From the IMG/VR virus record IMGVR_UViG_3300020478_000068, positions 1 through 23,839 of that record: a stretch of DNA of 23,839 nucleotides; one strand, written 5' to 3'. Source of the stretch: a virus. Below the pieces are notes generated by a model. The model was not told the origin of the DNA and did no database searches. It was given only the letters and a program-made list of their open reading frames with translations. The position numbers and the translations under genes were made by a program. This document shows positions 3,327 to 22,773 of this stretch, in pieces; position 1 is the stretch's first letter, and each line of letters begins with the position of its first letter.

Positions 3327-3377
3327 TCAACGCTTCGTAATTCAATTTCTAGATTAAACCATTAAGGAGAATAACAA

Positions 3378-4067
3378 ATGACTAGCAAGTCAGAAAGAAG
3401 ATCTGCAGGTCAAGTCGAAGGCGGTTTTATAGATTCCCCAATCTTTAATTTCCGCGATCAGATCGAAGATCTAGCAAGACCCAATCTGTTTCAAGTTGAA
3501 CTTTATTTCCCTGATATTGTAAGCGAAGGTCGCCCAGGTATCGGTGGAAGAACAGGTTCATCTGAAACACGTAGACAAGAAGAATCAGGTGGAAATGGAG
3601 TTAGTGTTCCAGGCAGTAACGCTATTTCTACAATGTTGGTCAAGGCAGCAAACCTGCCTGCTTCAACAATCGGTGTAATTGAAGTACCCTATCGTGGTCG
3701 TACTTTGAAGATTGCTGGAGATCGTACCTTCGAACCATGGACAGTTACAGTCCTCAACGATCAAGAATTCCGACTCCGTGCTAAAATGGAGGAGTGGGCA
3801 ACTAGGATCCAAAATCTACAGCAGAATATACAGGACGCTAAAGAGATTGGTGACTATCAGTCCAATGCTATCGTTCGTCAGTTCTCAAGACAAGGCGATC
3901 AGAAGAGAGCATATTCCTTCCAAGGCATTTGGCCAAGCACAGTATCCGCAATTGATCTGGCATGGGATAGCAACGATACTCCTGAGGAGTACACCGTTGA
4001 GTTCCAAGTTCAGTTCTGGTCTTATGCTGATGATGTCAACGGTGGCAACATGGAGAAAAAGTCTTAA
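3378..4067 (+). CDS. 19: Tail tube protein gp19
   Basis: This is the subunit of the inner tail tube, which assembles on the baseplate and is enclosed by gp18. At 229 residues it is longer than T4 gp19 (163). Landmarks shared with T4 gp19 are ARPNLFQVE near residue 30, a LPA segment near 95, the AGDRTFEPWTVTVLND block near 113-128, SNAIVRQ near 162, and the QGIWPS...LAWDSN...EYTVEFQVQFW C-terminal strands. A Gly/Ser/Arg-rich insertion occupies about residues 50-80, where T4 has a short loop. The start follows AAGGAGA at 3364-3370 with 7-base spacing. No late-type box is seen in the 51-base gap after gp18, so cotranscription with gp18 is likely. Confidence 0.94.
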   Translation: MTSKSERRSAGQVEGGFIDSPIFNFRDQIEDLARPNLFQVELYFPDIVSEGRPGIGGRTGSSETRRQEESGGNGVSVPGSNAISTMLVKAANLPASTIGVIEVPYRGRTLKIAGDRTFEPWTVTVLNDQEFRLRAKMEEWATRIQNLQQNIQDAKEIGDYQSNAIVRQFSRQGDQKRAYSFQGIWPSTVSAIDLAWDSNDTPEEYTVEFQVQFWSYADDVNGGNMEKKS

Positions 4068-4078
4068 CCCTTAAACTC

Positions 4079-4085
4079 CTAAATA
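4079..4085 (+). promoter_or_regulatory. Late-promoter-like box (CTAAATA) upstream of gp20
   Basis: CTAAATA ends 24 bases before the portal start codon, in the short gap after gp19. It matches the cyanophage variant of the T4 late promoter element. This is a motif-plus-position inference. Confidence 0.45.
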
Positions 4086-4109
4086 CAGTATAAGTCAAGG
4101 CGAATATTA

Positions 4110-5717
4110 ATGGCAAACCTTTTTGGTTATTCTCTAGCTCGTAAGAAGGGTCAAGATAAGACTGGCCCTTCTTTTGTGCGTAAAGACAGTGATGATGCTG
4201 CTGCACCAATTTCCGCTGGTGGTTATTTTGGACAGTATGTTGACTTAGGTGATGCTGCGAACAAAGCTAGTGAAGTAGACCTCCTCGGTAGATACCGAGA
4301 AATGTCAATCCACCCAGAGTGTGATTCGGCAGTTAACGATATTGTTAATGAAGCAATTGCTGGTGATCTAGATAATCATCCAGTAGATATAGAGTTATCA
4401 AATCTTCCAGTCTCGGACAATCTTAAGAGAGTTATTAGAGATGAGTTTGGAAATATACTTTCATTATTAGATTTTGATAGAAAGGCATACGATTTATTCC
4501 GTCGTTGGTATATTGACGGTCGTTTGTTTTTCCATAAAATGATCGACACCCAGGATCCAAAGAAGGGTATAACGGAACTGAGGTATATCGATCCACGTAA
4601 GATTAAAAAAGTAATTGAATACGACAAACCTAAGTCGAGGATTCAAAATGTAGATCCGAGCGAGGTTGCTCTTGCACCTAAGTCGATTGAGTATTACATA
4701 TACTCACCGAAAGGGATGAGAGGATATGAGAAGCAAGGTATTCGCATTGCACCTGATGCAATTTCCTACACCCATTCTGGTGTGTTGGATATGCAACGCA
4801 ACCATGTCTTATCACACCTCCATAAAGCAATAAAAGCACTCAATCAACTTCGGATGATTGAGGATAGTCTTGTAATATACAGATTATCTCGCGCACCAGA
4901 GCGTAGAATATTCTACATAGATGTAGGTAACTTACCTAAACAAAAAGCAGAACAATACCTCCGTGAGGTAATGTCTCGCTATAGGAATAAGTTAGTATAT
5001 AACGCTGATACTGGAGAGATCCGTGATGACAAGAAGTTCATGTCCATGTTGGAGGACTTCTGGTTACCACGTAGAGAAGGTGGAAGAGGTACAGAAATTA
5101 CTACACTCCCAGGTGGACAAAACCTTGGTGAGTTAGAAGATGTTAAGTACTTCCAACGCAAACTCTATCGTGCACTTAACGTTCCTGAGTCAAGACTTGA
5201 ATCTGAGTCTACTTTCAATATCGGAAGGAGTGCAGAGATCACACGTGACGAATTAAAATTCCAAAAATTTATAACTCGTTTGCGTAAAAGGTTTAGTGAC
5301 CTATTCAATGACTTATTAAAAACTCAATTAGTTCTAAAAGGTATCATCTCTCTTGAAGAGTGGGATGAATACAAGGAGCATATCCAATATGATTACATAG
5401 CGGATAATTATTTCTCTGAACTAAAAGAGAAAGAAATAATGAATGAAAGGTTGACTGCTCTTGAGCGTATGGATCCCTTTGCTGGACGTTATTTCTCTCT
5501 TGATTATCTTCGTCGTCAAATTCTCAAGCAGACAGATGAAGAGATTACAGAGATAGATAAGGATATGGCACAGGAAATTAAGGAAGGTAAGTTGATTGAT
5601 CCTCTTGCTATGCCTGCCATGGAACATCAACAGATGGAGATGTCTTTACAGCCAGAACCAGAAGAAGAGGTGTACCAAGGAGTTGATCCAAAAGATTACA
5701 AGCGCGGAGAAATATAA
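4110..5717 (+). CDS. 20: Portal vertex protein gp20
   Basis: This forms the dodecameric portal at one head vertex, through which DNA is packaged and to which the neck attaches. It also initiates prohead assembly on the membrane. The length of 535 residues is close to T4 gp20 (524). Recognisable portal blocks include DLLGRYREMSIHPECDSAVNDIVNEA near residues 58-83, the FRRWYIDGRLFFHK segment near 130-143, RYIDPRKIKK near 160, a RAPERRIFYIDVGNLPK block near 265, and the conserved TLPGGQNLGELEDVKYFQRKLYRALNVP region near 333-361. The C-terminus is acidic and Gln/Glu-rich. It has a CTAAATA box 24 bases upstream and AAGG at 4097-4100 as a weak ribosome site. It lies between the tube gene and the prohead core gene, as usual in T4-like cyanophages. 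Confidence 0.95.
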   Translation: MANLFGYSLARKKGQDKTGPSFVRKDSDDAAAPISAGGYFGQYVDLGDAANKASEVDLLGRYREMSIHPECDSAVNDIVNEAIAGDLDNHPVDIELSNLPVSDNLKRVIRDEFGNILSLLDFDRKAYDLFRRWYIDGRLFFHKMIDTQDPKKGITELRYIDPRKIKKVIEYDKPKSRIQNVDPSEVALAPKSIEYYIYSPKGMRGYEKQGIRIAPDAISYTHSGVLDMQRNHVLSHLHKAIKALNQLRMIEDSLVIYRLSRAPERRIFYIDVGNLPKQKAEQYLREVMSRYRNKLVYNADTGEIRDDKKFMSMLEDFWLPRREGGRGTEITTLPGGQNLGELEDVKYFQRKLYRALNVPESRLESESTFNIGRSAEITRDELKFQKFITRLRKRFSDLFNDLLKTQLVLKGIISLEEWDEYKEHIQYDYIADNYFSELKEKEIMNERLTALERMDPFAGRYFSLDYLRRQILKQTDEEITEIDKDMAQEIKEGKLIDPLAMPAMEHQQMEMSLQPEPEEEVYQGVDPKDYKRGEI

Positions 5718-5723
5718 AACTTT

Positions 5724-5730
5724 CTAAATA
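5724..5730 (+). promoter_or_regulatory. Late-promoter-like box (CTAAATA) upstream of gp67
   Basis: CTAAATA sits in the 36-base gap between gp20 and gp67 and ends 23 bases before the start codon, nearly the same spacing as the gp20 box. It would drive the gp67-gp21 pair. Confidence 0.45.
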
Positions 5731-5753
5731 AATATATGTAGTGCGGAATTATT

Positions 5754-6044
5754 ATGGCAACACAAGCAGCGAATGACGTTGTAAATGCATTATTTGCGGG
5801 TCAGAAAGATCTTTCAGATTTTGTAAACGATGCAATGCAAGCGAAAGCACTTGATGCAATATCGGCAAAGAAAGCTGATGTTGGTAAGACAATCTTCACT
5901 GCGCTAGATGCAGCAGAAGAGGAACCTACGGAAGATGAAACTGTAACTCCACCCGATCCATTAGCGACGGAAGTAGATACAGCAGTCACAGCGTCCACCC
6001 AAGAGCCAGAATCAAATGAAACTGATAACGGAACAGATAACTGA
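5754..6044 (+). CDS. 67: Prohead core protein gp67
   Basis: This is a small internal prohead core protein (96 residues) that helps set head shape and is normally destroyed by the prohead protease. The N-terminal half has the same kind of pattern as T4 gp67: a short helix, a DFVNDAMQAKALDAI segment (compare the AEAMAARTIDLI type segment in T4), then KKADVGKTIF. The C-terminal half (from about residue 54) is acidic and Thr/Glu/Pro-rich, like the acidic tail of T4 gp67. The last 29 bases overlap the start of gp21, so the two are probably translationally coupled. The identification rests on size, position between portal and protease, and this pattern rather than strong sequence identity. Confidence 0.75.
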   Translation: MATQAANDVVNALFAGQKDLSDFVNDAMQAKALDAISAKKADVGKTIFTALDAAEEEPTEDETVTPPDPLATEVDTAVTASTQEPESNETDNGTDN

Positions 6045-6654
6045 AGCCAAGGTAGTTATCAAAGAATCCAAAGGTAAGAAACACCACTTCATAGAAGGTG
6101 TGTTCCTTCAGGGTGGGATTAAAAATCGTAATGGAAGAATGTATCCTGTTGGGTTACTTGAAAGAGAGGTAGCTAAATACAACAACGATTATGTAAAATC
6201 TGGACGTGCACTCGGAGAACTTGGCCACCCCGAAGGTCCAACTATTAATCTAGATCGTGTTTCCCATTTAACGACTTCACTCGTAAGAGAAGGAGATAAT
6301 TTTATAGGTAAAGCGCGAATTCTCGATACTCCTATGGGTAAAATTGCAAAATCTTTACTCGATGAGGGTGTCAAACTAGGCGTTTCTTCTAGAGGTCTTG
6401 GATCTTTAAAAGAAGAAGAAGGTTGTAAAGTTGTTTGCGACGACTTTATGCTAGCAACCGCTGCCGACATTGTTGCTGACCCTTCTGCACCTGATGCTTT
6501 CGTAGATGGCATCATGGAAGGAAAGGAATGGGTTTGGGATAATGGAGCTGTCCAAGAACTTGAGGACATTAAGCACCGTATTTCTACTGCAGCGCAGAAC
6601 CAATTGCAGGAGAGGAAAATCTCCGCGTTTAACAAGTTCTTGCAAAGTTTGTAA
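6016..6654 (+). CDS. 21: Prohead core scaffold and protease gp21
   Basis: This is the maturation protease, assembled inside the prohead, which cleaves capsid, scaffold and core proteins after (L/I)xE sites and then itself. The length of 212 residues equals T4 gp21. Shared blocks are FIEGVFLQGGIKNRNGRMYP near residues 25-44, ALGELGHPEG near 65-74 with candidate catalytic His71, and GVSSRGLGSL at 122-131 with candidate nucleophile Ser124/Ser125 (assemblin-type Ser/His protease). A PSAPDAFVDGIMEGKEW block near 157-173 also matches. The start at 6016 overlaps gp67 by 29 bases. No strong ribosome site precedes it, which fits translational coupling. Internal initiation to make a shorter scaffold form, known in T4, cannot be judged here. 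Confidence 0.93.
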   Translation: MKLITEQITEAKVVIKESKGKKHHFIEGVFLQGGIKNRNGRMYPVGLLEREVAKYNNDYVKSGRALGELGHPEGPTINLDRVSHLTTSLVREGDNFIGKARILDTPMGKIAKSLLDEGVKLGVSSRGLGSLKEEEGCKVVCDDFMLATAADIVADPSAPDAFVDGIMEGKEWVWDNGAVQELEDIKHRISTAAQNQLQERKISAFNKFLQSL

Positions 6655-6656
6655 AA

Positions 6657-6664
6657 TATAAATA
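6657..6664 (+). promoter_or_regulatory. Late promoter box TATAAATA upstream of gp22
   Basis: This is an exact match to the T4 late consensus TATAAATA, immediately after the gp21 stop and 41 bases before the gp22 start. It is the best late-type promoter in the window. Confidence 0.55.
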
Positions 6665-6705
6665 ACTATAGCAAATCAGACCATTTGTACCTAGAGGAGA
6701 CACCA

Positions 6706-7776
6706 ATGTCTAAGGAGATTGAAAATCTGGATGAAAACCAAGTGACCGCTAACGCGAACCCAGGTGATAAAGCACAGAAGAAGTTGGAAAACGACGGATC
6801 TGGACTATCTCCTATTGATCTTGGAGGTCCAACCCCACAGAACAGCAAACCAACTGATGATTCTAACAAGTTTAGAATTGTAGCAGGTGGTAATGCTCAA
6901 CCCCCACAAACAAAACCTTCCGCTGCATCTGGACAGACTGCAACGTTTAACGATAAGGGTGATGTTAAGGCAGGATTCGAGCCCGAAGGCGAGACAATTG
7001 CCGAGGAACCAGTTAATGAGGAAGAGGTACAAACTGAAGAAGACTCCATGATTCTGGAGATCGACCTCAGCGATGATGTTGCTGCTCTTACAGAAGGCGA
7101 AGATCTTTCTGCAGAGTTTAAAGAGAAGGCAAAGACAATCTTCGAAGCCGCAGTTGTCTCTCGCCTAAACGAAGAACTAGAGCGTATGCATGGTGATTAT
7201 GCAAAAGTTCTAGAAGAAGAAATTGGTACTGTTAAGTCTGAACTTGCCGAGCAGGTAGATGAATACCTATCTTACAGTGTAAATCAGTGGATGGAGAAGA
7301 ACGAACTCGCCATTGAGCACGGTATTAAGGTAGAGATGGCAGAGTCAGTCCTTGCAGGACTAAAACAGGTTTTCTCAGAGAATTATATTGAAATCTCTGA
7401 TGAGAAAGTTGATTTGGTTGACGAAATGACCGAACAACTCGATACTATGGAGAAAAAACTCAACGATCAAATCGAGGAGAACGTTGCTCTTGTTAAAGAG
7501 ATTGGCGGACACACCAAGAATGGGATTGTGAATGAAGTTTCAGAAGGTTTAAGTTTGACCCAGAAGGAAAAACTATCTGGACTAGCTGAAGCGGTTGAGT
7601 TTGAAGATGAAACTAGTTACCGCGAGAAAGTTACCACTCTTCGTGAGTCGTATTTCTCCACTAAGCCCGAGGTTACTCCTAGTGAGTTATCAGAGGATGT
7701 AAAAGTAGAGAACCAGGAAGTAGGTCCAGGAATGGAAGCCTATGTCCAAGCACTCTCTCGTTGGTCTAAAAAATGA
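6706..7776 (+). CDS. 22: Prohead scaffold protein gp22
   Basis: This is the major scaffold of the prohead core, degraded to peptides by gp21 at head maturation. The protein is 356 residues, longer than T4 gp22 (269). It has an acidic, disordered N-terminal ~120 residues rich in Asn/Glu/Pro, then a long charged helical region (about 140-270) with coiled-coil character. It ends in a more conserved block near EKLSGLAEAVEFEDE and FSTKPEVTPSE. Several (L/I)xE sequences (for example IFE-A and LNE-E near residues 140-155) could be gp21 cleavage sites. The start at 6706 was chosen over an in-frame ATG at 6685 because GAGGAG at 6694-6699 is correctly spaced for 6706. A perfect TATAAATA box lies upstream, and the capsid gene follows. 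Confidence 0.9.
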   Translation: MSKEIENLDENQVTANANPGDKAQKKLENDGSGLSPIDLGGPTPQNSKPTDDSNKFRIVAGGNAQPPQTKPSAASGQTATFNDKGDVKAGFEPEGETIAEEPVNEEEVQTEEDSMILEIDLSDDVAALTEGEDLSAEFKEKAKTIFEAAVVSRLNEELERMHGDYAKVLEEEIGTVKSELAEQVDEYLSYSVNQWMEKNELAIEHGIKVEMAESVLAGLKQVFSENYIEISDEKVDLVDEMTEQLDTMEKKLNDQIEENVALVKEIGGHTKNGIVNEVSEGLSLTQKEKLSGLAEAVEFEDETSYREKVTTLRESYFSTKPEVTPSELSEDVKVENQEVGPGMEAYVQALSRWSKK

Positions 7777-7827
7777 TTTTAGACACAATTTTTCCCCACA
7801 AAATCTTTTAAAGAGGTAAAAAAGCAA

Positions 7828-9168
7828 ATGTTCAAAGCAGAACAATTGCAGGAAAAGTGGGCACCTATTCTAGAGCATAGTGAGATCGATGGTATCTCCG
7901 ATAAGTATAGAAAGGCTGTCACTTCCGTCCTGTTAGAAAACCAAGAAAAGTTCTTGAAGGAGGAGGCAGGTATTCTTAATGAAGCCGCTCCTACTATGAG
8001 TGCTGGAACTGGTGGTTTCGGTGGTTCAGCTACCGCAACTGGTCCTGTTGCTGGTTTCGACCCAGTTTTGATCTCGTTGATTCGTCGCTCAATGCCTAAG
8101 CTTATTGCTTATGACATTGCAGGTGTACAACCAATGACTGGTCCTACTGGATTGATCTTCGCAATGAGATCACGCTACACCAACCAGTCTGGTACAGAAG
8201 CATTCTTCAACGAAGCAGACTCCGAGTTCTCTGGAGAGAACGCTGCAAGCGATCTCGGACGTACTGCACAAGCAGGTAGCAACCCTGGTCTTCTTAACGA
8301 CTCTGGCTCATACACATACTCAGAAGGTATGCCAACAGCCGAGGCAGAAGCATTAGGTGATGCTGCTGGCAACCAGTTCGCTGAAATGGCATTCAGCATT
8401 GAGAAGGTAACAGTGACCGCTAAGTCACGTGCCCTCAAAGCTGAGTACAGTTTAGAACTGGCACAAGACCTTAAGGCAGTTCACGGTTTGGATGCCGAGT
8501 CTGAGCTTGCAAACATTCTATCAACTGAAGTCCTTGCTGAAATCAACAGGGAAGTTGTTAGATCTGTTTACAAGGTCGCTAGACCAGGTGCCCAGAACAA
8601 CACCGCAACTGCTGGAATTTTCGACCTAGACGTTGACTCCAACGGTAGATGGTCGGTTGAGAAATTCAAAGGTCTCCTATTCCAGATCGAAAGAGACATG
8701 AACGCAATCGGGCATGAAACTCGTCGCGGAAAGGGTAACATTCTCATCTGCTCTGCTGATGTAGCATCCGCCCTGTCCATGGCTGGAGTTCTCGATTACA
8801 CTCCTGCTCTTGCTCAAAATAGCAACCTGCTTCCTGATGACAATAGCAGCACTCTTGCTGGTACTCTGAATGGTCGCATCAAGGTCTATGTTGACCCATA
8901 CTCTGCAAACGTAAGTGATCGTCACTTCTACGTTGCTGGTTATAAGGGTTCTTCACCTTATGATGCTGGATTGTTCTACTGTCCTTACGTTCCTCTACAA
9001 ATGGTCAGAGCCGTAGGTCAGGACACCTTCCAACCAAAAATTGGATTCAAGACTCGTTATGGCATGATTGCTAACCCATTCGCCGAGGGAACAACTCAAG
9101 GCGGTGGCGATCTTGATCCTAACAAGAACCGCTACTATCGTCGTGTACTCGTTGACAACCTAATGTAA
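7828..9168 (+). CDS. 23: Major capsid protein gp23
   Basis: This is the HK97-fold hexamer subunit of the head. The 446-residue precursor is shorter than T4 gp23 (521) and typical of cyanophages. The N-terminal ~52 residues are a helical delta-like region. ILNE at 49-52 followed by AAPT fits a gp21 cleavage site, giving a mature N-terminus at Ala53. Typical capsid blocks follow: SLIRRSMPKLIAYDIAGVQPMTGPTGLIFAMRSRY near residues 88-122, a FAEMAFSIEKVTVTAKSRALKAEYSLELAQDLKAVHG region near 184-220, and a C-terminal MVRAVGQDTFQPKIGFKTRYG segment near 392-412. Ribosome site AAGAGGT is at 7811-7817. A strong terminator follows 25 bases after the stop, consistent with this being the most highly expressed gene of the module. 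Confidence 0.97.
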   Translation: MFKAEQLQEKWAPILEHSEIDGISDKYRKAVTSVLLENQEKFLKEEAGILNEAAPTMSAGTGGFGGSATATGPVAGFDPVLISLIRRSMPKLIAYDIAGVQPMTGPTGLIFAMRSRYTNQSGTEAFFNEADSEFSGENAASDLGRTAQAGSNPGLLNDSGSYTYSEGMPTAEAEALGDAAGNQFAEMAFSIEKVTVTAKSRALKAEYSLELAQDLKAVHGLDAESELANILSTEVLAEINREVVRSVYKVARPGAQNNTATAGIFDLDVDSNGRWSVEKFKGLLFQIERDMNAIGHETRRGKGNILICSADVASALSMAGVLDYTPALAQNSNLLPDDNSSTLAGTLNGRIKVYVDPYSANVSDRHFYVAGYKGSSPYDAGLFYCPYVPLQMVRAVGQDTFQPKIGFKTRYGMIANPFAEGTTQGGGDLDPNKNRYYRRVLVDNLM

Positions 9169-14470: not shown

Positions 14471-14727
14471 TGTATGTACTGACTGACATAGAGACAGGTG
14501 GTGTCTATGCTGTTAATGATACATCAACTGGATCTCGTGTTGTTACGATGTTTATTGACAAAGATGATGCTACGAGGTATCATGGACTCCTTATGTCTAA
14601 TGGGTTTAAACGTGACCTAGAAGTTAACGAGATTGAACCTGAAACAGTAAGAGATAACTGTAGTCAATACGGTTATGAGTATACTGTTATTACTCCTGAT
14701 GATTTGGTTGTGCCTCCTACAGAATGA
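14470..14727 (+). CDS. Small DUF3110-like protein between gp47 and gp46
   Basis: This 85-residue protein has the pattern MYVLTD...GGVYAVND...VVTMFIDKDDATRYHGLLMSNGF...VNEIEPETVRDNCSQYGYEYTVI. It resembles the cyanobacterial/chloroplast DUF3110 domain: an N-terminal strand, a V-MF-D-DDA-RY core near residues 24-37, then a C-x-x-x-GYE motif near 60-67. The resemblance is from memory of the family pattern and was not searched. It is wedged between the two nuclease subunits with overlaps at both ends (TAATG and ATGA), so it will be made in step with them. A role as a modulator of gp46/47 or a captured host protein is possible; no biochemical function is known to me. Confidence 0.75.
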   Translation: MYVLTDIETGGVYAVNDTSTGSRVVTMFIDKDDATRYHGLLMSNGFKRDLEVNEIEPETVRDNCSQYGYEYTVITPDDLVVPPTE

Positions 14728-16391
14728 TTATATTCGAAAAGATTCGTTGGAAGAATTTCCTTTCTACTGGGAATAATTTCATCGAAATGGACCTTCGTGC
14801 GTCCACTGCTACACTTGTTATTGGTCAAAATGGTTCAGGGAAGTCCACAATGCTGGATGCCCTGTGCTTTGCTTTGTTCAATAAACCTTTCCGTAAGATC
14901 ACTAGAGGACAACTGGTCAATAGTGTGAACGAGAAGGGTACTATAGTGGAGATTGAGTTCACTATAGGTAGCTTAGAATATAAAGTAGTTAGAGGGATTA
15001 AACCGAATGTCTTTGAGATTTATAGAAACGGTTCTTTACTGGATCAAGATGCCGCTGCCAAGGATTATCAGAAATATCTTGAACAATCCATACTCAGACT
15101 CAACTTCAAGTCATTCACACAAGTCGTCATCTTGGGTTCATCCACATTTGTCCCATTCATGCAACTCTCCGCACCTCACAGGAGAGAAGTTATTGAAGAT
15201 TTACTCGACATCCAGGTCTTTTCCCAAATGAATTCACTCCTCAAAGACCGTGTGAAAGACACGAGAGAGGAGATGAAAAACTGTAAGCATGAACTTGCTA
15301 TGGTTCAACAGGAAGTTGACCTAAGAGAGGACAATATAAAGAATTTAGAGAGTCAATCAGGTGCATACACCAAGGCAAAGGAAGAACGTATGACATCTAT
15401 TGATACTGAGGTAAAAGAGTTGATGGATATAGTTCTGACACTCGAACCTAAGGTGGTTGATCTTGAGGAACACAAGAGTAAGTATGATAAATTGAAGGAA
15501 TATCGTACTAAAATCAAGCAAAACCTCACAAAATCACAGAAAGATATAGTTTTCTTTGAGAGCAATGATTCCTGTCCTACCTGTACTCAGACGATAGATC
15601 CAGCATGGAAGGAGGAGCATGTCAGTAAGATAAATGCTGGTATCGAGAAGTATAATGCTGGTGTAGATGACATCAGTGGTAAGATCAAGGCAACTATCAA
15701 GGAAATTAAAGCAACAGAAAAAATAAGCGAGGAGATCTCTGAGAAAAGATATACAATTAACTCTTTAATGAAGGAGCAATTTAGGATATGTCAGGAATTA
15801 AAGGAGGGTTCTCCTAACCTAGATAGTGAACGCGAATCACTAGAGGGATTAATCAGTGCTAGAGATGAGAAGCAGTCTATATGTTCCAATGTCAATCAAC
15901 GGAACGAGAACTATAAGGTTGTTGGAAATCTACTTAAAGATGGAGGTATTAAGACTAAAATTATTAGGAAGTTTATACCTACAATTAACCACAAAATCAA
16001 TAAATACCTTGCAGAGATGGACTTCTTCGTTAATTTCACACTTGACGAAGAGTTTAATGAGGTGATAAAATCACGGTACCGTGATGTCTTTACCTATTCA
16101 TCCTTCTCTGAGGGTGAAAAGCAGAAGATTGACCTAGCATTGCTGTTTACTTGGCGTTCGATTGCTAAACTAAAGAACAGTGCTAACACTAATCTCTTGA
16201 TACTTGATGAGGTTTTTGACTCTTCACTTGATACTTCCTCTACTGAGGAGTTATTGAAGATATTAAAGACCTTTAGGGAGTCAGCAAACATGTTTGTCAT
16301 ATCTCATAAGGGTGACGTGCTTCTTGACAAGTTCCCTAGGACTGTTAAGTTTAATAAAGAGAATGATTTTTCTCACATGAGTGAGGAGTAG
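14724..16391 (+). CDS. 46: Recombination endonuclease subunit gp46 (Rad50/SbcC family)
   Basis: This is the ABC-type ATPase subunit partnering gp47 in end resection. The 555-residue length is close to T4 gp46 (560). Walker A GQNGSGKS is at 34-41. Two long coiled-coil arms flank the zinc hook CPTC (Cys284 and Cys287). The ABC signature SEGEKQK begins at Ser462, Walker B LLILDEVFD contains Asp495/Glu496, and a final ISHKGD switch follows. All elements needed for an active Rad50-type ATPase are present. It starts with an ATGA overlap with the DUF3110-like gene. A 61-base gap after the stop holds no recognisable terminator. Confidence 0.95.
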   Translation: MIIFEKIRWKNFLSTGNNFIEMDLRASTATLVIGQNGSGKSTMLDALCFALFNKPFRKITRGQLVNSVNEKGTIVEIEFTIGSLEYKVVRGIKPNVFEIYRNGSLLDQDAAAKDYQKYLEQSILRLNFKSFTQVVILGSSTFVPFMQLSAPHRREVIEDLLDIQVFSQMNSLLKDRVKDTREEMKNCKHELAMVQQEVDLREDNIKNLESQSGAYTKAKEERMTSIDTEVKELMDIVLTLEPKVVDLEEHKSKYDKLKEYRTKIKQNLTKSQKDIVFFESNDSCPTCTQTIDPAWKEEHVSKINAGIEKYNAGVDDISGKIKATIKEIKATEKISEEISEKRYTINSLMKEQFRICQELKEGSPNLDSERESLEGLISARDEKQSICSNVNQRNENYKVVGNLLKDGGIKTKIIRKFIPTINHKINKYLAEMDFFVNFTLDEEFNEVIKSRYRDVFTYSSFSEGEKQKIDLALLFTWRSIAKLKNSANTNLLILDEVFDSSLDTSSTEELLKILKTFRESANMFVISHKGDVLLDKFPRTVKFNKENDFSHMSEE

Positions 16392-16674: not shown

Positions 16675-16765
16675 ACAGTTTAAAAAGAGGCACATGAACC
16701 CGACCAAGCGTCGGGTTTCGTCGTATTATAGGGTCATGAACGAACGAAACTATGTCTGTTACTGA
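16583..16765 (+). CDS. Overlapping small basic protein (alternate frame)
   Basis: This 60-residue ORF lies in the +1 frame relative to the 73-residue gene and begins inside it. It has a well-placed ribosome site (GAGGA at 16570-16574, 8-base spacing). The protein is very basic; its N-terminal half (VPNWQHHSKKEPKRHLKP, then QMLRQARARVRQFKKRH) looks protein-like, with an amphipathic basic helix, and suggests nucleic-acid binding. The C-terminal ~22 residues read through a hairpin (16697-16717) and 14 bases into the VWA gene, so the true end could differ. It may be a real gene translated by coupling, or a chance ORF; I favour real because the other frame becomes low-complexity in the overlap. 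Confidence 0.45.
   Translation: MQVPNWQHHSKKEPKRHLKPQMLRQARARVRQFKKRHMNPTKRRVSSYYRVMNERNYVCY
16697..16717 (+). other. Hairpin upstream of the VWA/zincin gene
   Basis: An 8-bp perfect stem AACCCGAC/GTCGGGTT surrounds a CAAGC loop, 34 bases before the next start codon. It is followed by only three T bases, so it is a weak terminator at best. It could be an attenuator or an RNA stability/processing element controlling the large downstream gene. Confidence 0.5.
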
Positions 16766-18938
16766 AATTAAAGGACAACTAGCTCGACTCCTAGCAACGG
16801 AAAATTTGGTAGTTGAGCATCGTAAGTGTGAGACCGCATCATTTGATGTTGATAGAAGGATCCTTACACTACCCATCTGGCAAAATCTTGAGAACGTGGT
16901 CTATGACCTATTGGTAGGACATGAGGTAGGACATGCCTTATACACACCACCTACTGTTGATGCTGCTGTTTCTGAAGAATTACCCAAATCCTATGTAAAT
17001 GTCACTGAGGACGCTAGGATTGAGAAATTAATGAAGCGTAAGTTTCCTGGTCTTGCTAAGTCATTCTATAATGGATACAAAAGTCTACATGCACGTGACT
17101 TCTTTGGCGTATGGAATGAAGATATTGCACAAATGAAGTTGATTGACCGTATCAATCTACACTGTAAGATTGGTGCTGTTGCAATGATCCCATTTGATGA
17201 TGAAGAAGAGGAATATGTAGAGTTAGTTGAACTTGCAGAGACCTTTGAGGATGCTGTTGCTGCTGCTCAAGTTATCTGGGATCTAGAACAGTATAATAGA
17301 GAGCAAAATTCTGCTCCTTCACCTAAAACTGACATCCCAAACCCTAATCAAGCAGGTAGTACACCTGATGATGATCAAGAATTTGAGGTACCTCAGCAAC
17401 CAGAGAGAGGAGAGGATCCTCAGAAGTCTAAACCAGAGGAACAGGAGAAGGCAGACCTAGACACACCTAGTTACCAGACTGGAGGTGGTAAGCAGTCTGA
17501 TGAGGCAGTTACAGACACAGCATTCGAAGAGAATTTGAAGAAATCTGCATCACAAGATGAACATAGTGCACCAAGATACCTAGAAATTGCTGACCCAGAC
17601 CTAGAAAATTTAATCGTTGACCATAAGTACGTAGCCGAACAATTACGTATCTTCTGGTCAGAGTGTGACGGGGATCATTTCCTACAAATGAGGGAAGAAG
17701 AAGATAGAAAACCTGATTTTACTCATGTTGACTTAGATTATAAGAAGTTTGTTGATTCTAATACTCGTGAGGTTAATTACCTTGTAAAAGAATTTGAGAT
17801 GAAGAAGTCTGCTACTGCATATGCACGTCAGACTGTCTCAAAAACAGGCATTTTAGACATGAAAAAACTCCATGCTTATAACTGGAGTGAAGATCTATTT
17901 CTTAAGGTTACTAACACACCTGATGGTAAGAACCATGGTTTAATATTCATGCTTGATTGGTCTGGATCTATGGCACCATACATTCATGACACTGTAAAAC
18001 AACTGTTATCTCTAACAGCATTCTGTAAGAAAGTTGGTATTCCTTTTGAGGTCTATTCATTTGTATATGATCCTACATGGAATTCTTTACAGTATGAGTA
18101 TCCTGATCAGGCACCAGAACATACTGAACAAACCCCAGATACATACTATTTCCCTAAGGAGTATAGATTAATCAACTTACTTAGCAGCAGAACAAATGCT
18201 AAAGAGTACGATACTGAGTGTAAAAATCTATATCGTGTTAGTTATTGGTTCGGTAAGCGTGAATTATCTTACTGGGAGTTCCAAGCTTTCAAGACCTATC
18301 CTATGCCTGGTTTCTTTGGTCTAGGTGGTACACCTTTGAATGATGCAATTGCATCTTTACCTGCTCTAATACCACATTTCCGTGCTAAAACTGGTGTTGA
18401 GAAGACTAATGTTGTATTCTTAACTGATGGTGAATCTAATCAGGCAATGTATTGGGATCATAGTAGTGGAACTTACAATGATGGCAGGCATTGGGATAGA
18501 ACATTCCAAAGAGCTGTACGTAATAACCATTGTTTACGTAACCGTAGGAATGGTAGAGTGTATCCAGAACTTCAGGGTTGGTGGACTGCTACTCAAAGAC
18601 TTCTTGAGTACGTAAGAGATACATTTTCTGACGTTAATATCGTTGGTTTCCGTGTATGTCAACCTCGTGAAGCGAATAGATTGATTAGATATTATTCTGG
18701 GTGGGATGAAGCAGAACGTGTTACTGCTGATTTCAAGAGGAATAAGACTGCTATCGTTCGTGACTGTGGATATGACGAATTGTATCTAATTGCAGCGAGC
18801 AATCTTGATTCTGATGTAGAGTTTGAAGTGAAGGAGGATGCTACTAAGGCACAGATCCGTAGTGCTTTCAAGAAAACTCTTAAAGCAAAGGCATCCAACA
18901 AGAAAATCTTATCATCCTTTATAGGACAAATAGCATGA
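16752..18938 (+). CDS. Zincin-like / von Willebrand A domain protein, partner of the CobS-like ATPase
   Basis: The protein has 728 residues. The N-terminal ~190 residues contain HEVGH at 57-61, a zinc metallopeptidase signature, and a downstream TEDARIE (85-91) that could give the third ligand. Residues about 190-265 are a low-complexity Pro/Gln/Glu/Asp linker. The C-terminal half is a von Willebrand A domain: the MIDAS motif DWSGS (Asp402, Ser404, Ser406) and a VVFLTDGESN strand with Asp559. This architecture recalls CobT-type and other VWA partners of MoxR-family AAA+ ATPases, and a CobS-like ATPase is encoded 0.8 kb downstream. Its probable role is ATP-driven protein remodelling or proteolysis, not cobalt chelation, since no CobN-like gene is in view. 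The start at 16752 has no strong ribosome site. The gene overlaps the next one by ATGA. Confidence 0.85.
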   Translation: MSVTEIKGQLARLLATENLVVEHRKCETASFDVDRRILTLPIWQNLENVVYDLLVGHEVGHALYTPPTVDAAVSEELPKSYVNVTEDARIEKLMKRKFPGLAKSFYNGYKSLHARDFFGVWNEDIAQMKLIDRINLHCKIGAVAMIPFDDEEEEYVELVELAETFEDAVAAAQVIWDLEQYNREQNSAPSPKTDIPNPNQAGSTPDDDQEFEVPQQPERGEDPQKSKPEEQEKADLDTPSYQTGGGKQSDEAVTDTAFEENLKKSASQDEHSAPRYLEIADPDLENLIVDHKYVAEQLRIFWSECDGDHFLQMREEEDRKPDFTHVDLDYKKFVDSNTREVNYLVKEFEMKKSATAYARQTVSKTGILDMKKLHAYNWSEDLFLKVTNTPDGKNHGLIFMLDWSGSMAPYIHDTVKQLLSLTAFCKKVGIPFEVYSFVYDPTWNSLQYEYPDQAPEHTEQTPDTYYFPKEYRLINLLSSRTNAKEYDTECKNLYRVSYWFGKRELSYWEFQAFKTYPMPGFFGLGGTPLNDAIASLPALIPHFRAKTGVEKTNVVFLTDGESNQAMYWDHSSGTYNDGRHWDRTFQRAVRNNHCLRNRRNGRVYPELQGWWTATQRLLEYVRDTFSDVNIVGFRVCQPREANRLIRYYSGWDEAERVTADFKRNKTAIVRDCGYDELYLIAASNLDSDVEFEVKEDATKAQIRSAFKKTLKAKASNKKILSSFIGQIA

Positions 18939-19171
18939 CTACAATCAAAGCCAACTATCCAACCAGACATGCGTACCCATTGTACAAGTTCTACAATGAA
19001 CCTGAAGATTGGGAGAAGACTGGTAGAGTTAAGGTGGAATGTAAGGAGGGTAGGGTAGAGATTAAGGTCTTTGAGACTGATTCTATCCTAGTTCATACGT
19101 TAAATATATGGTCGGATGATGGACCTGTAGGTTGTCGTCTAACGGAGGAGTTAACACCAGTACAGGAATGA
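18935..19171 (+). CDS. Small protein between the VWA gene and the CobS-like gene, unknown function
   Basis: This 78-residue protein starts in an ATGA overlap with the VWA gene and ends in an ATGA overlap with the next gene. It has an N-terminal PTRHAYPLYKFYNEPEDWEKTG segment, a beta-type middle (RVKVECKEGRVEIKVFETDSILVHTLNIW) and an acidic tail. It looks soluble. No family is recognised. Its tight coupling suggests it is expressed with the VWA/ATPase pair. Confidence 0.65.
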   Translation: MTTIKANYPTRHAYPLYKFYNEPEDWEKTGRVKVECKEGRVEIKVFETDSILVHTLNIWSDDGPVGCRLTEELTPVQE

Positions 19172-19797
19172 ATATATTTGTAGTCCATGAGGATCCTTAT
19201 CTGGCAGCGTGTGCGTTGCCAGATAAACTTGTTGTAAAGATGCCAGTGGAGACTGCACAGATGTTAGCAGTCATTTATAGTCCACATATGCATGATATTG
19301 GTCCTTTATTCAAGGCAGATGGTACCCCATATAATACCAAGAAGGGAGCATGGAAGAACCATCCTTGTACTCAGTGGGCAGCAAAGAATAGACATAATAT
19401 TAACTGGTTATTACAGCATGGAATAGGGTTATGTGACGAATTTAGGTATAGATATGGTAAAGACCATGGATCAGAACCAGCGATACGACTTGCAGGTATG
19501 ATGTGGTCGGGTACCTGTTGGGAGAAACATTCTCCTTTCGTCAGATGTATGCCAGATGAGTTCAAAAACGATACCTCTATCAGTACAGTGGAGGCATATC
19601 GTAGGTATCTCTTATCAAAACCATGGGTAAAAGACAACTACCATAGGACAGATAGAAAACCGTCCTTTATTACGCACGAACCTGACGAATTCGATTATAC
19701 TATAGACATATTCAAACAAGATTCAAATGCCATTTCAACCAGCACCAGTGACAACCGAACAGATCTTGGATTACTTGACGGAATCCTTCGGAACTGA
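19168..19797 (+). CDS. Conserved marine-phage protein with DKLVVKM-E-AQML motif, unknown function
   Basis: This is a 209-residue protein starting at the ATG of an ATGA overlap; an in-frame ATG at 19132 would lie inside the previous gene. The N-terminus MNIFVVHEDPYLAACALPDKLVVKMPVETAQML and the later block GTPYNTKKGAWKNHPCTQWAAKNRHNINWLLQHGIGLCDEFRYRYGKDHG form a pattern I recognise from many phage proteins of unassigned function, with conserved His/Lys/Trp/Glu residues suggestive of an enzyme. The last ~24 residues are low-complexity and overlap the start of the CobS-like gene by 71 bases, an unusually long overlap here. Confidence 0.75.
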   Translation: MNIFVVHEDPYLAACALPDKLVVKMPVETAQMLAVIYSPHMHDIGPLFKADGTPYNTKKGAWKNHPCTQWAAKNRHNINWLLQHGIGLCDEFRYRYGKDHGSEPAIRLAGMMWSGTCWEKHSPFVRCMPDEFKNDTSISTVEAYRRYLLSKPWVKDNYHRTDRKPSFITHEPDEFDYTIDIFKQDSNAISTSTSDNRTDLGLLDGILRN

Positions 19798-20803
19798 AGT
19801 CGGTACTGCAGAACTATTAACAGCAGCAGATAAGTTTGGTGTTTCCTATGCTACTATTAAGAAAAGAATTAAGGATTATAAGATTGGTATCGGTAAGTGG
19901 AATTTAACCGTGCAAGAACTAGAAAAGGTATTCACTTCACCATCTGCACCAGAAAAGCAAAATCTTATACCTGCTAAGGATCCAAACTTCGTACCTTTTG
20001 GTAATTTTAATGACCTTAAGAGGGTACTTAAAGCAAAGATATTCTATCCTGTATTCATTACTGGTCTCTCAGGTAACGGTAAGACCTTTGGTGTAGAACA
20101 GGCATGTTCACAACTAAATAGAGAGTTAATTAGAGTCAATATTACCGTTGAAACCGACGAAGATGACCTTATTGGTGGGTTCCGTCTTGCTGATGGTAAC
20201 ACTGTGTGGCATAATGGTCCAGTCATCGAAGCTCTGGAGAGGGGAGCTGTCCTCCTTCTAGACGAAGTTGACCTTGCCAGCAACAAAATCCTATGCTTAC
20301 AGTCTATCCTAGAGGGTAAGGGTGTATTCCTTAAGAAGATTGGTAGGTACGTTCAACCTGCCAAGGGATTCACTGTGGTTGCTACTGCAAACACTAAAGG
20401 AAAAGGATCCGACGACGGACGTTTCGTTGGTACTAATGTACTCAATGAAGCATTCCTAGAGAGATTCCCCTTAACTTTCGAGCAAGAGTACCCAACACCA
20501 GTAAATGAGACTAAAATACTCAACAACTACTGTCATGAGTTGGATGCTTGTGACGATGAGTTCATCACACACCTAGTAAACTGGGCAGATATCATCCGTA
20601 AGACCTTTAAAGAGGGTGGAGTGGATGAAATCATTAGTACTCGTCGTCTAGTACACATCATCCGTGCCTTTGCGATCTTTAACAATCGTGTGAAGGCAGT
20701 AAACGTATGCCTGAACAGGTTTGATGATGAGACTAAGCAGTCATTTCTCGAATTATATGATAAGATTGATGCTGACGTTGACATAAACAACAATCTAGAG
20801 TAA
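19727..20803 (+). CDS. cobS: CobS-like (MoxR-type) AAA+ ATPase
   Basis: This 358-residue protein is of the type commonly annotated CobS in cyanophage genomes. Residues about 9-60 look like a small helix-turn-helix domain (AADKFGVSYATIKKRIKDYKIG). The AAA+ core follows: Walker A GLSGNGKT at 113-120, Walker B VLLLDE with Asp179/Glu180, sensor-1 ATANT near 220-223, and candidate arginine finger Arg246 in LNEAFLERF. The EDDLIGGFRLADGNTVWHNGPVIEAL insert before Walker B is typical of the CobS/MoxR group. True CobS drives cobalt insertion with CobT and CobN; here the likely partner is the zincin/VWA protein upstream. The start overlaps the previous gene by 71 bases; no in-frame ATG lies soon after it, so it was kept. 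Confidence 0.9.
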   Translation: MPFQPAPVTTEQILDYLTESFGTEVGTAELLTAADKFGVSYATIKKRIKDYKIGIGKWNLTVQELEKVFTSPSAPEKQNLIPAKDPNFVPFGNFNDLKRVLKAKIFYPVFITGLSGNGKTFGVEQACSQLNRELIRVNITVETDEDDLIGGFRLADGNTVWHNGPVIEALERGAVLLLDEVDLASNKILCLQSILEGKGVFLKKIGRYVQPAKGFTVVATANTKGKGSDDGRFVGTNVLNEAFLERFPLTFEQEYPTPVNETKILNNYCHELDACDDEFITHLVNWADIIRKTFKEGGVDEIISTRRLVHIIRAFAIFNNRVKAVNVCLNRFDDETKQSFLELYDKIDADVDINNNLE

Positions 20804-20807: not shown

Positions 20808-21125
20808 ATGACTATGAACAAGTATAGTGAATCAGAGATCTTGCGAGAGGTCTCTGATTACATTGGAAACACTTATCGTGGGCACTATTCTGTCGGTAAT
20901 GTTCAAACTTTGGATCTTATCGACTCAGTTGGTGACGCAGAAGCATTCTGTAGGAGTAACATCCTAAAGTATGCCTCACGGTATGATCGAAAGGGTACAG
21001 CACGTAAGGACATCATCAAGATTATCCATTATGCTATACTCTTACTCCATTTCAATGATAAGACCGCTAGAGCGCAGTCTATCAATGATGGAACTACAGC
21101 ATTCTCCGTTGATTACGACAAATGA
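20808..21125 (+). CDS. DUF3310-like protein
   Basis: This 105-residue protein contains the pattern GHYSVGNVQTLDLIDSVGDAEAFCRSNILKYASRYDRKG...DIIKIIHYAILLLHF (residues ~25-82). It matches the DUF3310 type (HY...G..t.dli...F...N.lKY..R..rKg...D..K..hY). Some DUF3310 proteins are related to the T7 gp1.7 nucleotide kinase, but activity here is not shown. An in-frame second ATG at 20814 is an alternative start; neither has a strong ribosome site. It lies four bases after the CobS-like gene and overlaps gp45 by ATGA, so it belongs to the clamp/clamp-loader transcription unit. A link to nucleotide supply would suit that position. Confidence 0.75.
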   Translation: MTMNKYSESEILREVSDYIGNTYRGHYSVGNVQTLDLIDSVGDAEAFCRSNILKYASRYDRKGTARKDIIKIIHYAILLLHFNDKTARAQSINDGTTAFSVDYDK

Positions 21126-21835
21126 GTATTAGTTTATCCCCATTTACACAAGATTTACTGAAGAATTTCAGTAATATCAACAAGTCAATAGTTATTGAAC
21201 CTGGTAACAAGATCAGTACAATCTCTATCAACAAAAATATTCTTGCACGTGCAACGGTTGAAGAGAGTTTCGAATATAAGATGGCATTCTATGATCTTTC
21301 TACTTTTCTTGGTGGAATATCATTGATTGATGAGCCACAGTTAAGCATTACAGATAAGAAGTGTAGTGTAAAATCTAAGAATGGTAAGTCTAGTACAACA
21401 TTCTACTATGCTGATCCAGATATAATCACATCTCCTCCTAAGAAGGAGATTGCTATGCCTGATCCAACATGTTCATTCGAACTTACAACAGATACGTTGA
21501 TGACTATTGAACGTGCTGCTAAGTTGTACATGGTACCAGATTTATGTGTGACTACACGTGGTCAGGATTTGATCTTAACCGTCACTGATAAGAAGAATGA
21601 TACCAGTAATGCATTTGAAATAGTAGTCGGTGAAGTATCCCCTGATGAGACCTTCTGTTATTGTATGAAGGTAGAAAACCTTAAGGTAATGTCTCAAGCA
21701 CAACGTGCTGGAAGATCCCTTAACTATCAGGTATCTCTATCAGATAAGAAGGTAGCATACTTTAAGGATCAGCAAGGAAATTTAGAATATTTTATAGCAT
21801 TAGAACCAGATAGTGAACTTCGTCATAAGGTTTAA
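21122..21835 (+). CDS. 45: Sliding clamp gp45
   Basis: This is the trimeric DNA polymerase processivity clamp, also the activator of late transcription in T4. The 237-residue length is close to T4 gp45 (228). Shared pattern: the N-terminal FTQDLLKNFSNINKSIVIEPG, then AFYDLSTFLGGISLIDEPQLSI near 55-76, a FYYADPDIITSPPKK block near 96-110, and the end segment NLEYFIALEPDS, which mirrors the NYVVALEADS end of the T4 protein. It begins in an ATGA overlap with the DUF3310-like gene and is followed two bases later by gp44. Confidence 0.93.
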   Translation: MSISLSPFTQDLLKNFSNINKSIVIEPGNKISTISINKNILARATVEESFEYKMAFYDLSTFLGGISLIDEPQLSITDKKCSVKSKNGKSSTTFYYADPDIITSPPKKEIAMPDPTCSFELTTDTLMTIERAAKLYMVPDLCVTTRGQDLILTVTDKKNDTSNAFEIVVGEVSPDETFCYCMKVENLKVMSQAQRAGRSLNYQVSLSDKKVAYFKDQQGNLEYFIALEPDSELRHKV

Positions 21836-21837
21836 TT

Positions 21838-22773
21838 ATGTTTTTATGGGTTGAACAATATCGTCCCCAGTCGATTGAGGAATGTATTATTCCTGATGAA
21901 ACTAAGGCGATGTTTAAAGGGTTCTTAGAGCAAGGAGAGATTCCTAATCTTCTTCTTGCAGGACCAGCAGGGGTGGGAAAGACTACCGTTGCTAAGGCAT
22001 TGTGTAATGAGATAGGAGCAGATTTTTATGTCATTAATGGGTCTGATGAGGGTAGATTCCTGGACACTGTACGCAATCAGGCAAAGACCTTTGCTGCTAC
22101 TGTTTCTCTTACATCTGAATCAAACCATAAAATTATCATTGTGGATGAGGCGGATAATACGACGCCTGACGTACAGTTATTACTTAGGGCGTCGATTGAA
22201 GAATTCCAGAAAAACTGTAGGTTCATATTCACGTGTAATTATAAAAATAAAATCATAGAACCACTGCACTCAAGGTGTGCTGTAGTGGATTTCACATTGA
22301 AAGGAGCACAAAAGCAGGCATTAGCAGCAGAATTCTTTCATCGTGCCAAAGATATACTAGACAAGGAGAACGTTAAGTATGACCCAAAGGTTATTGCCGC
22401 TTTGGTTAAGAAGTATTTCCCTGATTTTCGCCGTACTCTTAATGAGTTGCAGCGTTATTCCAATCGTGGTGAGGTAGATTCAGGTATACTTGCACAACAG
22501 ACCGATGTTAACATACAGGACTTGGTTAAGTTCTTACAAGGTCGCGAGTTTACTAACATGAAGAAGTGGGTGGTTCAGAACATGGATAATGAACCTGTCA
22601 AGATCATGCGTAAGGTATATGATTCCATGTATGATTACTTGAAACCTCAATCTATACCTGAGGCAGTCCTTATTATTGGTGAGTACCAGTATAAGTCTGC
22701 ATTTGTAGCAGATCAGGAGATTAATTTAGTTGCATTCCTTACAGAGATAATGATGAGGTGTGAGTTCAAATGA
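21838..22773 (+). CDS. 44: Clamp loader large subunit gp44
   Basis: This AAA+ ATPase, with gp62, opens gp45 and loads it on primed DNA. The 311-residue length is close to T4 gp44 (319). Motifs are an N-terminal WVEQYRP segment, Walker A GPAGVGKT at 42-49, Walker B IIIVDEAD with Asp103/Glu104, sensor-1 FTCNYKNKI near 131-139, and the SRC arginine-finger motif at 145-147. The C-terminal collar-type helical region follows. It overlaps the next small gene by ATGA. The partner gene 62, which directly follows 44 in T4, is not at this position. Confidence 0.95.
   Translation: MFLWVEQYRPQSIEECIIPDETKAMFKGFLEQGEIPNLLLAGPAGVGKTTVAKALCNEIGADFYVINGSDEGRFLDTVRNQAKTFAATVSLTSESNHKIIIVDEADNTTPDVQLLLRASIEEFQKNCRFIFTCNYKNKIIEPLHSRCAVVDFTLKGAQKQALAAEFFHRAKDILDKENVKYDPKVIAALVKKYFPDFRRTLNELQRYSNRGEVDSGILAQQTDVNIQDLVKFLQGREFTNMKKWVVQNMDNEPVKIMRKVYDSMYDYLKPQSIPEAVLIIGEYQYKSAFVADQEINLVAFLTEIMMRCEFK

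Follow-up and report, generated by a model that had tools for sequence, protein, structure and literature searches.

A phage-borne zincin-VWA protein and its AAA+ ATPase neighbor as a probable protein-remodeling pair related to CobT and CobS

Results

Two linked genes in a T4-like phage segment

The stretch of DNA analyzed here (the window) is a partial IMG/VR virus record of 23,839 bases, IMGVR_UViG_3300020478_000068, and profile matches of the encoded proteins identify it as a segment of a T4-like myovirus. Two genes on its plus strand are the subject of this work: one encodes a 728-residue protein in which a predicted zincin domain precedes a VWA domain (16752..18938; phrog_459 E 2e-240), and the other, starting 788 bp past the end of the first, encodes a 358-residue AAA+ ATPase of the AAA_5/CbbQ type (19727..20803). 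The profiles of PHROG 459, annotated as 'peptidase' in cyanophages, and of PHROG 249 (E 2e-136), annotated as 'cobS' or 'porphyrin biosynthesis', match the two proteins over their full length. The pair belongs to already catalogued phage families, and the interesting part is the evolutionary reading of CobT to which it leads.

The N-terminal domain has the marks of a gluzincin

The N-terminal gluzincin-type domain (residues 1-188; 16752..17315, plus strand) was assigned from conservation, AF2 modeling, fold matches and HHalign, and it carries HEVGH at residues 57-61 and NVTED at residues 83-87. The VWA domain (residues about 393-728; 17928..18935, plus strand), assigned from structure matches and invariance, holds a MIDAS made of D402-W-S404-G-S406 (the DWSGS motif at residue 402), T527 and D559. 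In an alignment of 81 family sequences, none of H57, E58, H61, N83, E86, D87 or the MIDAS residues varies. In AF2 predictions the isolated N-domain of 188 residues reaches pLDDT 90, and the full protein a mean pLDDT of 78; the modeled domain places HEVGH on a helix (48-64) and NxxED on a second helix (79-97), following three short strands, in a gluzincin-like arrangement. HEVGH and the MIDAS VWA domain were both named in the original prediction, made by a model from the sequence, and the invariance and the N-domain model uphold them.

The first 23 structural matches of the N-domain model are all metallopeptidases or zincin-fold relatives, among them ZMPSTE24, ArdC, jannalysin/selecase, BlaR1, IrrE/PprI, SPRTN, Wss1 and an aminopeptidase. 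These matches support a zincin/gluzincin fold while falling short of proof. CobT structures are absent among the fold matches listed, which is uninformative on the fold, and searching solved structures directly by the sequence of the zincin-VWA protein gave no useful match. From its conservation and position, E86 is probably the third metal ligand, and the domain may, to judge by its motifs, bind zinc and cut proteins.

The VWA domain and the ATPase resemble AAA_5-type partnerships

The best structural matches of the VWA domain are the MDN1 MIDAS (Z 15.7), the NorD VWA (15.2) and Rea1, spanning 15.7 to 13.6, whereas integrin-type and other VWA domains score lower (Z about 11 to 12). Both MDN1/Rea1 and NorD supply the VWA part of systems driven by AAA_5 motors. 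The AAA+ protein itself carries AAA_5 (PF07728, 9e-19) and CbbQ_C (PF08406) domains, both above the gathering score, and its nearest sequences of solved structure are midasin, CobS, NorQ and CbbQ. Walker A, Walker B, N222, R246 and R306/R307 are invariant in the family alignment, and the Walker A/B, sensor 1 and arginine finger features of the AAA_5/CbbQ-NorQ type are all present; a weak helix-turn-helix-like match lies at the N-terminus. The ATPase had originally been described as CobS/MoxR-type: by Pfam it is of the AAA_5 type of CbbQ, CobS and NorQ, but it is not MoxR proper, because MoxR's AAA_3 model (PF07726) scores 24.3 bits against a cut-off of 27. The TIGR01650 CobS model also falls far below its equivalog cut-off (72.6 bits vs 558). 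The zincin-VWA protein gave no Pfam match relevant to RavA-ViaA, a system with which no dedicated comparison was made.

The pair is linked and co-evolves

The two genes share a strand in 63 of 63 IMG/VR relatives, and of 57 relatives whose downstream sequence extends 1.5 kb or more, 56 have the AAA+ gene there. A lack of co-occurrence across relatives had been named in advance as a result that would count against the predicted pairing; these counts give no such refutation. The recurring gene order is gp46, zincin-VWA, AAA+, DUF3310, gp45 and gp44, with gp46 present in 70 of 80 relatives' loci. Among annotated phages, the zincin-VWA gene is present in 463 records and an AAA+ gene of 60-80% identity in 455, and the organisms counted for the two genes agree. 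Across 32 loci, the pairwise distances of one protein correlate with those of the other (r 0.82); for the same loci, either member of the pair against gp45 or gp46 gives r 0.62-0.68, and gp45 against gp46 gives r 0.77.

Cellular relatives of the window family were found at 10 loci in a set of 85,000 species. Because T4-like gene order surrounds several of these loci, they are taken to be phage contigs binned with host genomes, and a chromosomal lineage of the family, for which they offer no evidence, was rejected. A PADLOC search gave no match and no sign of a catalogued defense system.

CobT appears to be a relative that lost the metal site

Intermediates carrying HExxH...NxxED occur in SSU5-type phage-plasmids, a Rhizobium phage, a roseophage, an IncC plasmid and some genomes. 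Several of them match the Pfam CobT families (PF06213 down to 5e-27, PF11775 down to 2e-82), and profile comparison aligns them with true CobT over the full length (100%, E 1e-42). HHalign in turn aligns the N-domains of the window family with those of the intermediates (97.7%, E 2e-12), placing HEVGH on HEAAH and NVTED on NxLED, and a further profile comparison in the chain of intermediates gave E 8e-19. PF06213 and PF11775 gave no match to the window's zincin-VWA protein at E up to 1, and PF06213 matches 9 of 58 window-family members (best E 0.002).

True CobT proteins lack HExxH in 32 of 32 cases: the position of H57 is S, A or Q, that of E58 is mostly M, L, I, F or V, and that of H61 is mostly R or K; E86 is kept in all 32. 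In a tree of the superfamily, which is unrooted and has long branches, the window family forms one clade (99), as does true CobT (97), and the latter lies inside a group without the zincin site, itself nested among phage and plasmid relatives that have it, a distribution for which three changes suffice. Genomic CobT-like proteins without HExxH form a sister group of true CobT. Judged by these comparisons, the window protein is a CobT-superfamily member that kept the predicted metal site, and the zincin domain of the phage proteins and the N-terminal domain of CobT are homologous. The natural reading of the tree, though not proof, is that the metal-binding histidines disappeared in CobT while its partnership of VWA and AAA+ persisted.

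In Staphylococcus phage JD007 (locus 5707-7682), a CobS-like AAA+ gene lies directly 5' of a DUF7192 gene without HExxH, whose product might be a degenerate VWA partner. Among kayviruses, some AAA+ genes of this type likewise bear the porphyrin biosynthesis label.

No CobN in 15 element records that carry such genes

CobN was found in none of 15 whole phage or plasmid records carrying such genes. CobN was also absent from 99 of 99 genomes of the SAR11 family, and the Pelagibacter (SAR11) phage HTVC008M carries the pair. The SAR11 genomes were located with the SAR11-441R 16S probe; both matches lay in loci with bacterial small-subunit rRNA genes. A related pair is carried by Escherichia phage PhiR41_1, whose recorded host, E. 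coli MG1655, is not known to encode CobN. Because related pairs occur in phages of hosts without CobN, the pair is unlikely to be a cobaltochelatase. CobN-type proteins were seen in the genomes of cyanobacterial hosts, and the window itself is a partial record. The 'cobS'/B12 label for the pair is poorly supported and looks misleading. The window's want of CobN had been taken to mean that the label is a misnomer; the 15 element records agree, but the ancestry shared with CobT makes the pair misnamed by function and less so by descent.

Gene context points to replication

In the window, genes for sheath, tube, portal, prohead protease, scaffold and major head protein are followed by UvsY, UvsW, gp55, gp47, gp46, the zincin-VWA/AAA+ pair, a DUF3310 gene, gp45 and gp44. 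Upstream is the gene for gp46, an SbcC-like recombination nuclease subunit (14724..16391, plus strand; phrog_77 1.5e-179), and downstream, also on the plus strand, are the DUF3310 gene, the gp45 sliding clamp and the gp44 clamp loader (20808..22773; PF11753, PF09116 and PF21328). The neighbors of such pairs in unrelated elements are likewise replication and recombination genes: in T4-like relatives the pair adjoins gp46/47 and the clamp genes, and elsewhere UvsX and primase, or dnaE, ligase, primase and helicase, are found. On the IncC plasmid pSN254 (locus 804-8797), AAA+ and zincin-VWA (HEAAH) genes flank ssb, bet, an exonuclease and a DUF3150 gene.

By itself, the motif TATAAATA shows no enrichment in the window (1 occurrence vs 1.24 expected), and a wider late-promoter motif, NATAAATA, was used instead, with annotated controls in two reference phages. 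Across three phages, 15 of 32 gene starts in the virion region have NATAAATA upstream, compared with 0 of 22 in the replication region. It precedes the zincin-VWA gene in 1 of 78 cases and the AAA+ gene in 1 of 63, which is the background rate. In the main text of two cyanophage transcription studies, cobS and the peptidase are not named. Since the neighbors are replication genes and the late motif stands at background, the context favors a pair that would work during replication rather than virion assembly.

Two small genes separate the pair in the window. The first (18935..19171, plus strand) encodes 78 residues with no match in Pfam and PHROG profile searches, and the second (19168..19797, plus strand) encodes a 209-residue T4 endonuclease V (DenV)-like pyrimidine-dimer glycosylase (PF03013 8.5e-10; phrog_624 5e-63). 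Successive genes overlap by 4 nt (zincin-VWA and 78-residue genes), 4 nt (78-residue and DenV-like genes) and 71 nt (DenV-like and AAA+ genes). An open reading frame and motif check found the gene positions, HEVGH, DWSGS, the 0.8-kb spacing and the overlaps where the original prediction had put them. A role for the DenV-like gene as a fixed third component was rejected, since most relatives lack it between the two genes. A pyrimidine-dimer glycosylase gene is also found near the CobS/CobT pair of Roseobacter phage CRP-810 (locus 6037-6531). A 13-pair stem-loop lies within the DenV-like gene (19197-19226), and just 5' of the zincin-VWA gene a strong hairpin is followed by a few T (16697-16717; z -2.5), perhaps a terminator that separates this gene from the one upstream.

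Discussion

Homology, intact motifs, linkage, co-evolution, the absence of CobN and the promoter context, all observed by computation, make it probable that the two proteins form one machine, composed of an AAA_5 ATPase ring and a VWA adaptor with a gluzincin domain, that is not a cobaltochelatase and acts in replication, with CobT as a relative without the metal site. An AAA_5-type (CbbQ/NorQ/CobS-like) ring would couple physically to the zincin-VWA adaptor, whose C-terminal VWA/MIDAS domain would dock on the ring or present the substrate and whose N-terminal gluzincin domain could cut the remodeled client. Because the pair is encoded with replication and recombination genes and not with virion genes, the client would most likely be a protein, of host or phage, that takes part in DNA replication or obstructs it. 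The original prediction, that the pair unfolds or processes a host or phage protein, is borne out as far as the linked and co-evolving genes, the intact zincin site and the absence of CobN go, whereas the peptidase activity and the substrate are still only expected. A bolder extension, which is rather unlikely, is that these pairs represent an unrecognized phage and plasmid class of ATP-driven metalloprotease acting at replicating or damaged DNA, from which CobT evolved by loss of the protease site.

Several observations weigh against a proteolytic machine of replication. A chance HExxH arises in 3.4% of shuffles of the 728-residue protein, which makes the motif alone weak; the structural Z of the N-domain does not exceed 5.5, leaving motif, conservation and the type of proteins matched as the main grounds for calling it a zincin; the window family and true CobT show no significant similarity when their profiles are compared directly, which makes the link transitive; and the promoter context consists of motif positions, not expression data. 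Moreover, three phage or plasmid relatives (those of an Acinetobacter plasmid, nickie and BUCTxx99, each with one of QEVAK, SEISK or REVST at the motif) lack HExxH and keep VWA and AAA+, and because of these losses proteolysis cannot be essential throughout the wider family. These relatives, together with all true CobT, also speak for a pseudo-peptidase, in which the zincin fold binds the client without cutting and remodeling is the sole activity; however, the conservation of HExxH, N83, E86 and D87 throughout the window family is something that a binding scaffold would hardly need, and this reading is somewhat unlikely. A narrower form of the replication machine, a remover of DNA-protein crosslinks or replication obstacles analogous to SPRTN/Wss1 with its own AAA+ motor, would fit the SPRTN, Wss1 and IrrE matches among others, the neighbors gp46/47, clamp and loader, DenV, dnaE, primase, ligase and bet/exo across unrelated elements, and the helix-turn-helix-like match on the ATPase. 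It is nevertheless unlikely, as the structural Z to SPRTN and Wss1 is under 5, the helix-turn-helix call is weak, and replication genes commonly neighbor any early phage gene.

Two functions have been proposed in print for such genes. Iyer et al. (2021; PMC7824862) described a MoxR AAA+ and N-terminal metallopeptidase-vWA pair in group 2.2 jumbo phages, for which virion assembly was proposed, and a MoxR-vWA pair without the peptidase on which the tail assembly of an archaeal virus is reported to depend. The window pair has the same architecture as the former, and a chaperone-protease that helps assemble and process structural proteins would follow from the likeness. That function is distinctly unlikely here, since in T4-like relatives the neighbors of the pair are replication and recombination genes, and the same holds for related pairs on phage-plasmids of the dnaE type and plasmids of the bet/exo type. 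The parts are also present on an IncC plasmid, an element that produces no virion, and the published proposal is further weakened because late-promoter motifs mark virion genes and not the pair. Liu et al. (2021; PMC8651126) called the cyanophage 'peptidase' CobT, paired the genes as cobST and proposed hijack of host CobN, and a boost of cobalamin by cobS is relayed elsewhere (PMC2984593). Both proteins are indeed homologous to CobS and CobT, and in cyanobacteria such a hijack is conceivable: CobN/ChlH-family proteins are present in 19 of 21 Prochlorococcus genomes, a further point against a machine independent of CobN, and a CobT domain in 0 of 21, so that a phage could supply a missing subunit. 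A viral CobST that raises cobalamin output is still very unlikely, given that CobN is missing from the SAR11 genomes and the element records though a SAR11 phage has the pair, that the ATPase scores so far below the CobS cut-off, that the zincin site intact in the window family is absent from true CobT, and that SAR11 (PMC9296465) and genome-streamlined roseobacters (PMC12478193) are described as B12 auxotrophs.

The idea of such a pair is itself not wholly new, being preceded by PMC8651126 and by PMC7824862; the cobS label, which the original prediction would recast, is poorly supported. An incomplete search of the literature yielded no statement that joins the jumbo-phage pair with cyanophage cobST, that calls the CobT N-domain a decayed zincin, or that reports homology between the phage zincin domain and the CobT N-domain. 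The 'cobS' gene is part of the T4-like cyanophage core, and many studies of marine viromes list it among cobalamin auxiliary metabolic genes; if the pair is a remodeling protease, their ecological statements on viral B12 would need revision. The link to CobT, if true, would explain the origin of the AAA+/VWA half of cobaltochelatase.

Among known systems, the jumbo-phage pair (PMC7824862) is, like that of the window, a phage-borne AAA+ with a vWA protein bearing an N-terminal metallopeptidase, and judged by its description it is probably of the same or a sister family; the available portion of the paper treats it as a matter of jumbo phages and virion assembly and draws no link to CobT or cyanophage cobS. 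CobS/CobT shares with the window pair an AAA_5 ATPase with a CbbQ-type C-domain, a VWA partner and, by way of the intermediates, a homologous N-domain (PF06213), but true CobT has no HExxH, has N where the window protein has T527, and works with CobN, which was not found in the element records. The pairs of SSU5-type phage-plasmids, IncC plasmids and Rhizobium, Vibrio and Roseobacter phages resemble the window pair in having HExxH and MIDAS, in most cases NxxED, and an AAA+ partner in the locus; most of them are closer to true CobT by their PF11775 matches, and some relatives lost the zincin site. Finally, NorQ/NorD and midasin (MDN1/Rea1) provide the best structural matches of the window VWA domain and are among the best solved-structure sequence matches of its AAA+ domain; unlike the window protein, the matched VWA constructs are without a zincin, and the clients of these systems are an oxidoreductase and pre-ribosomes.

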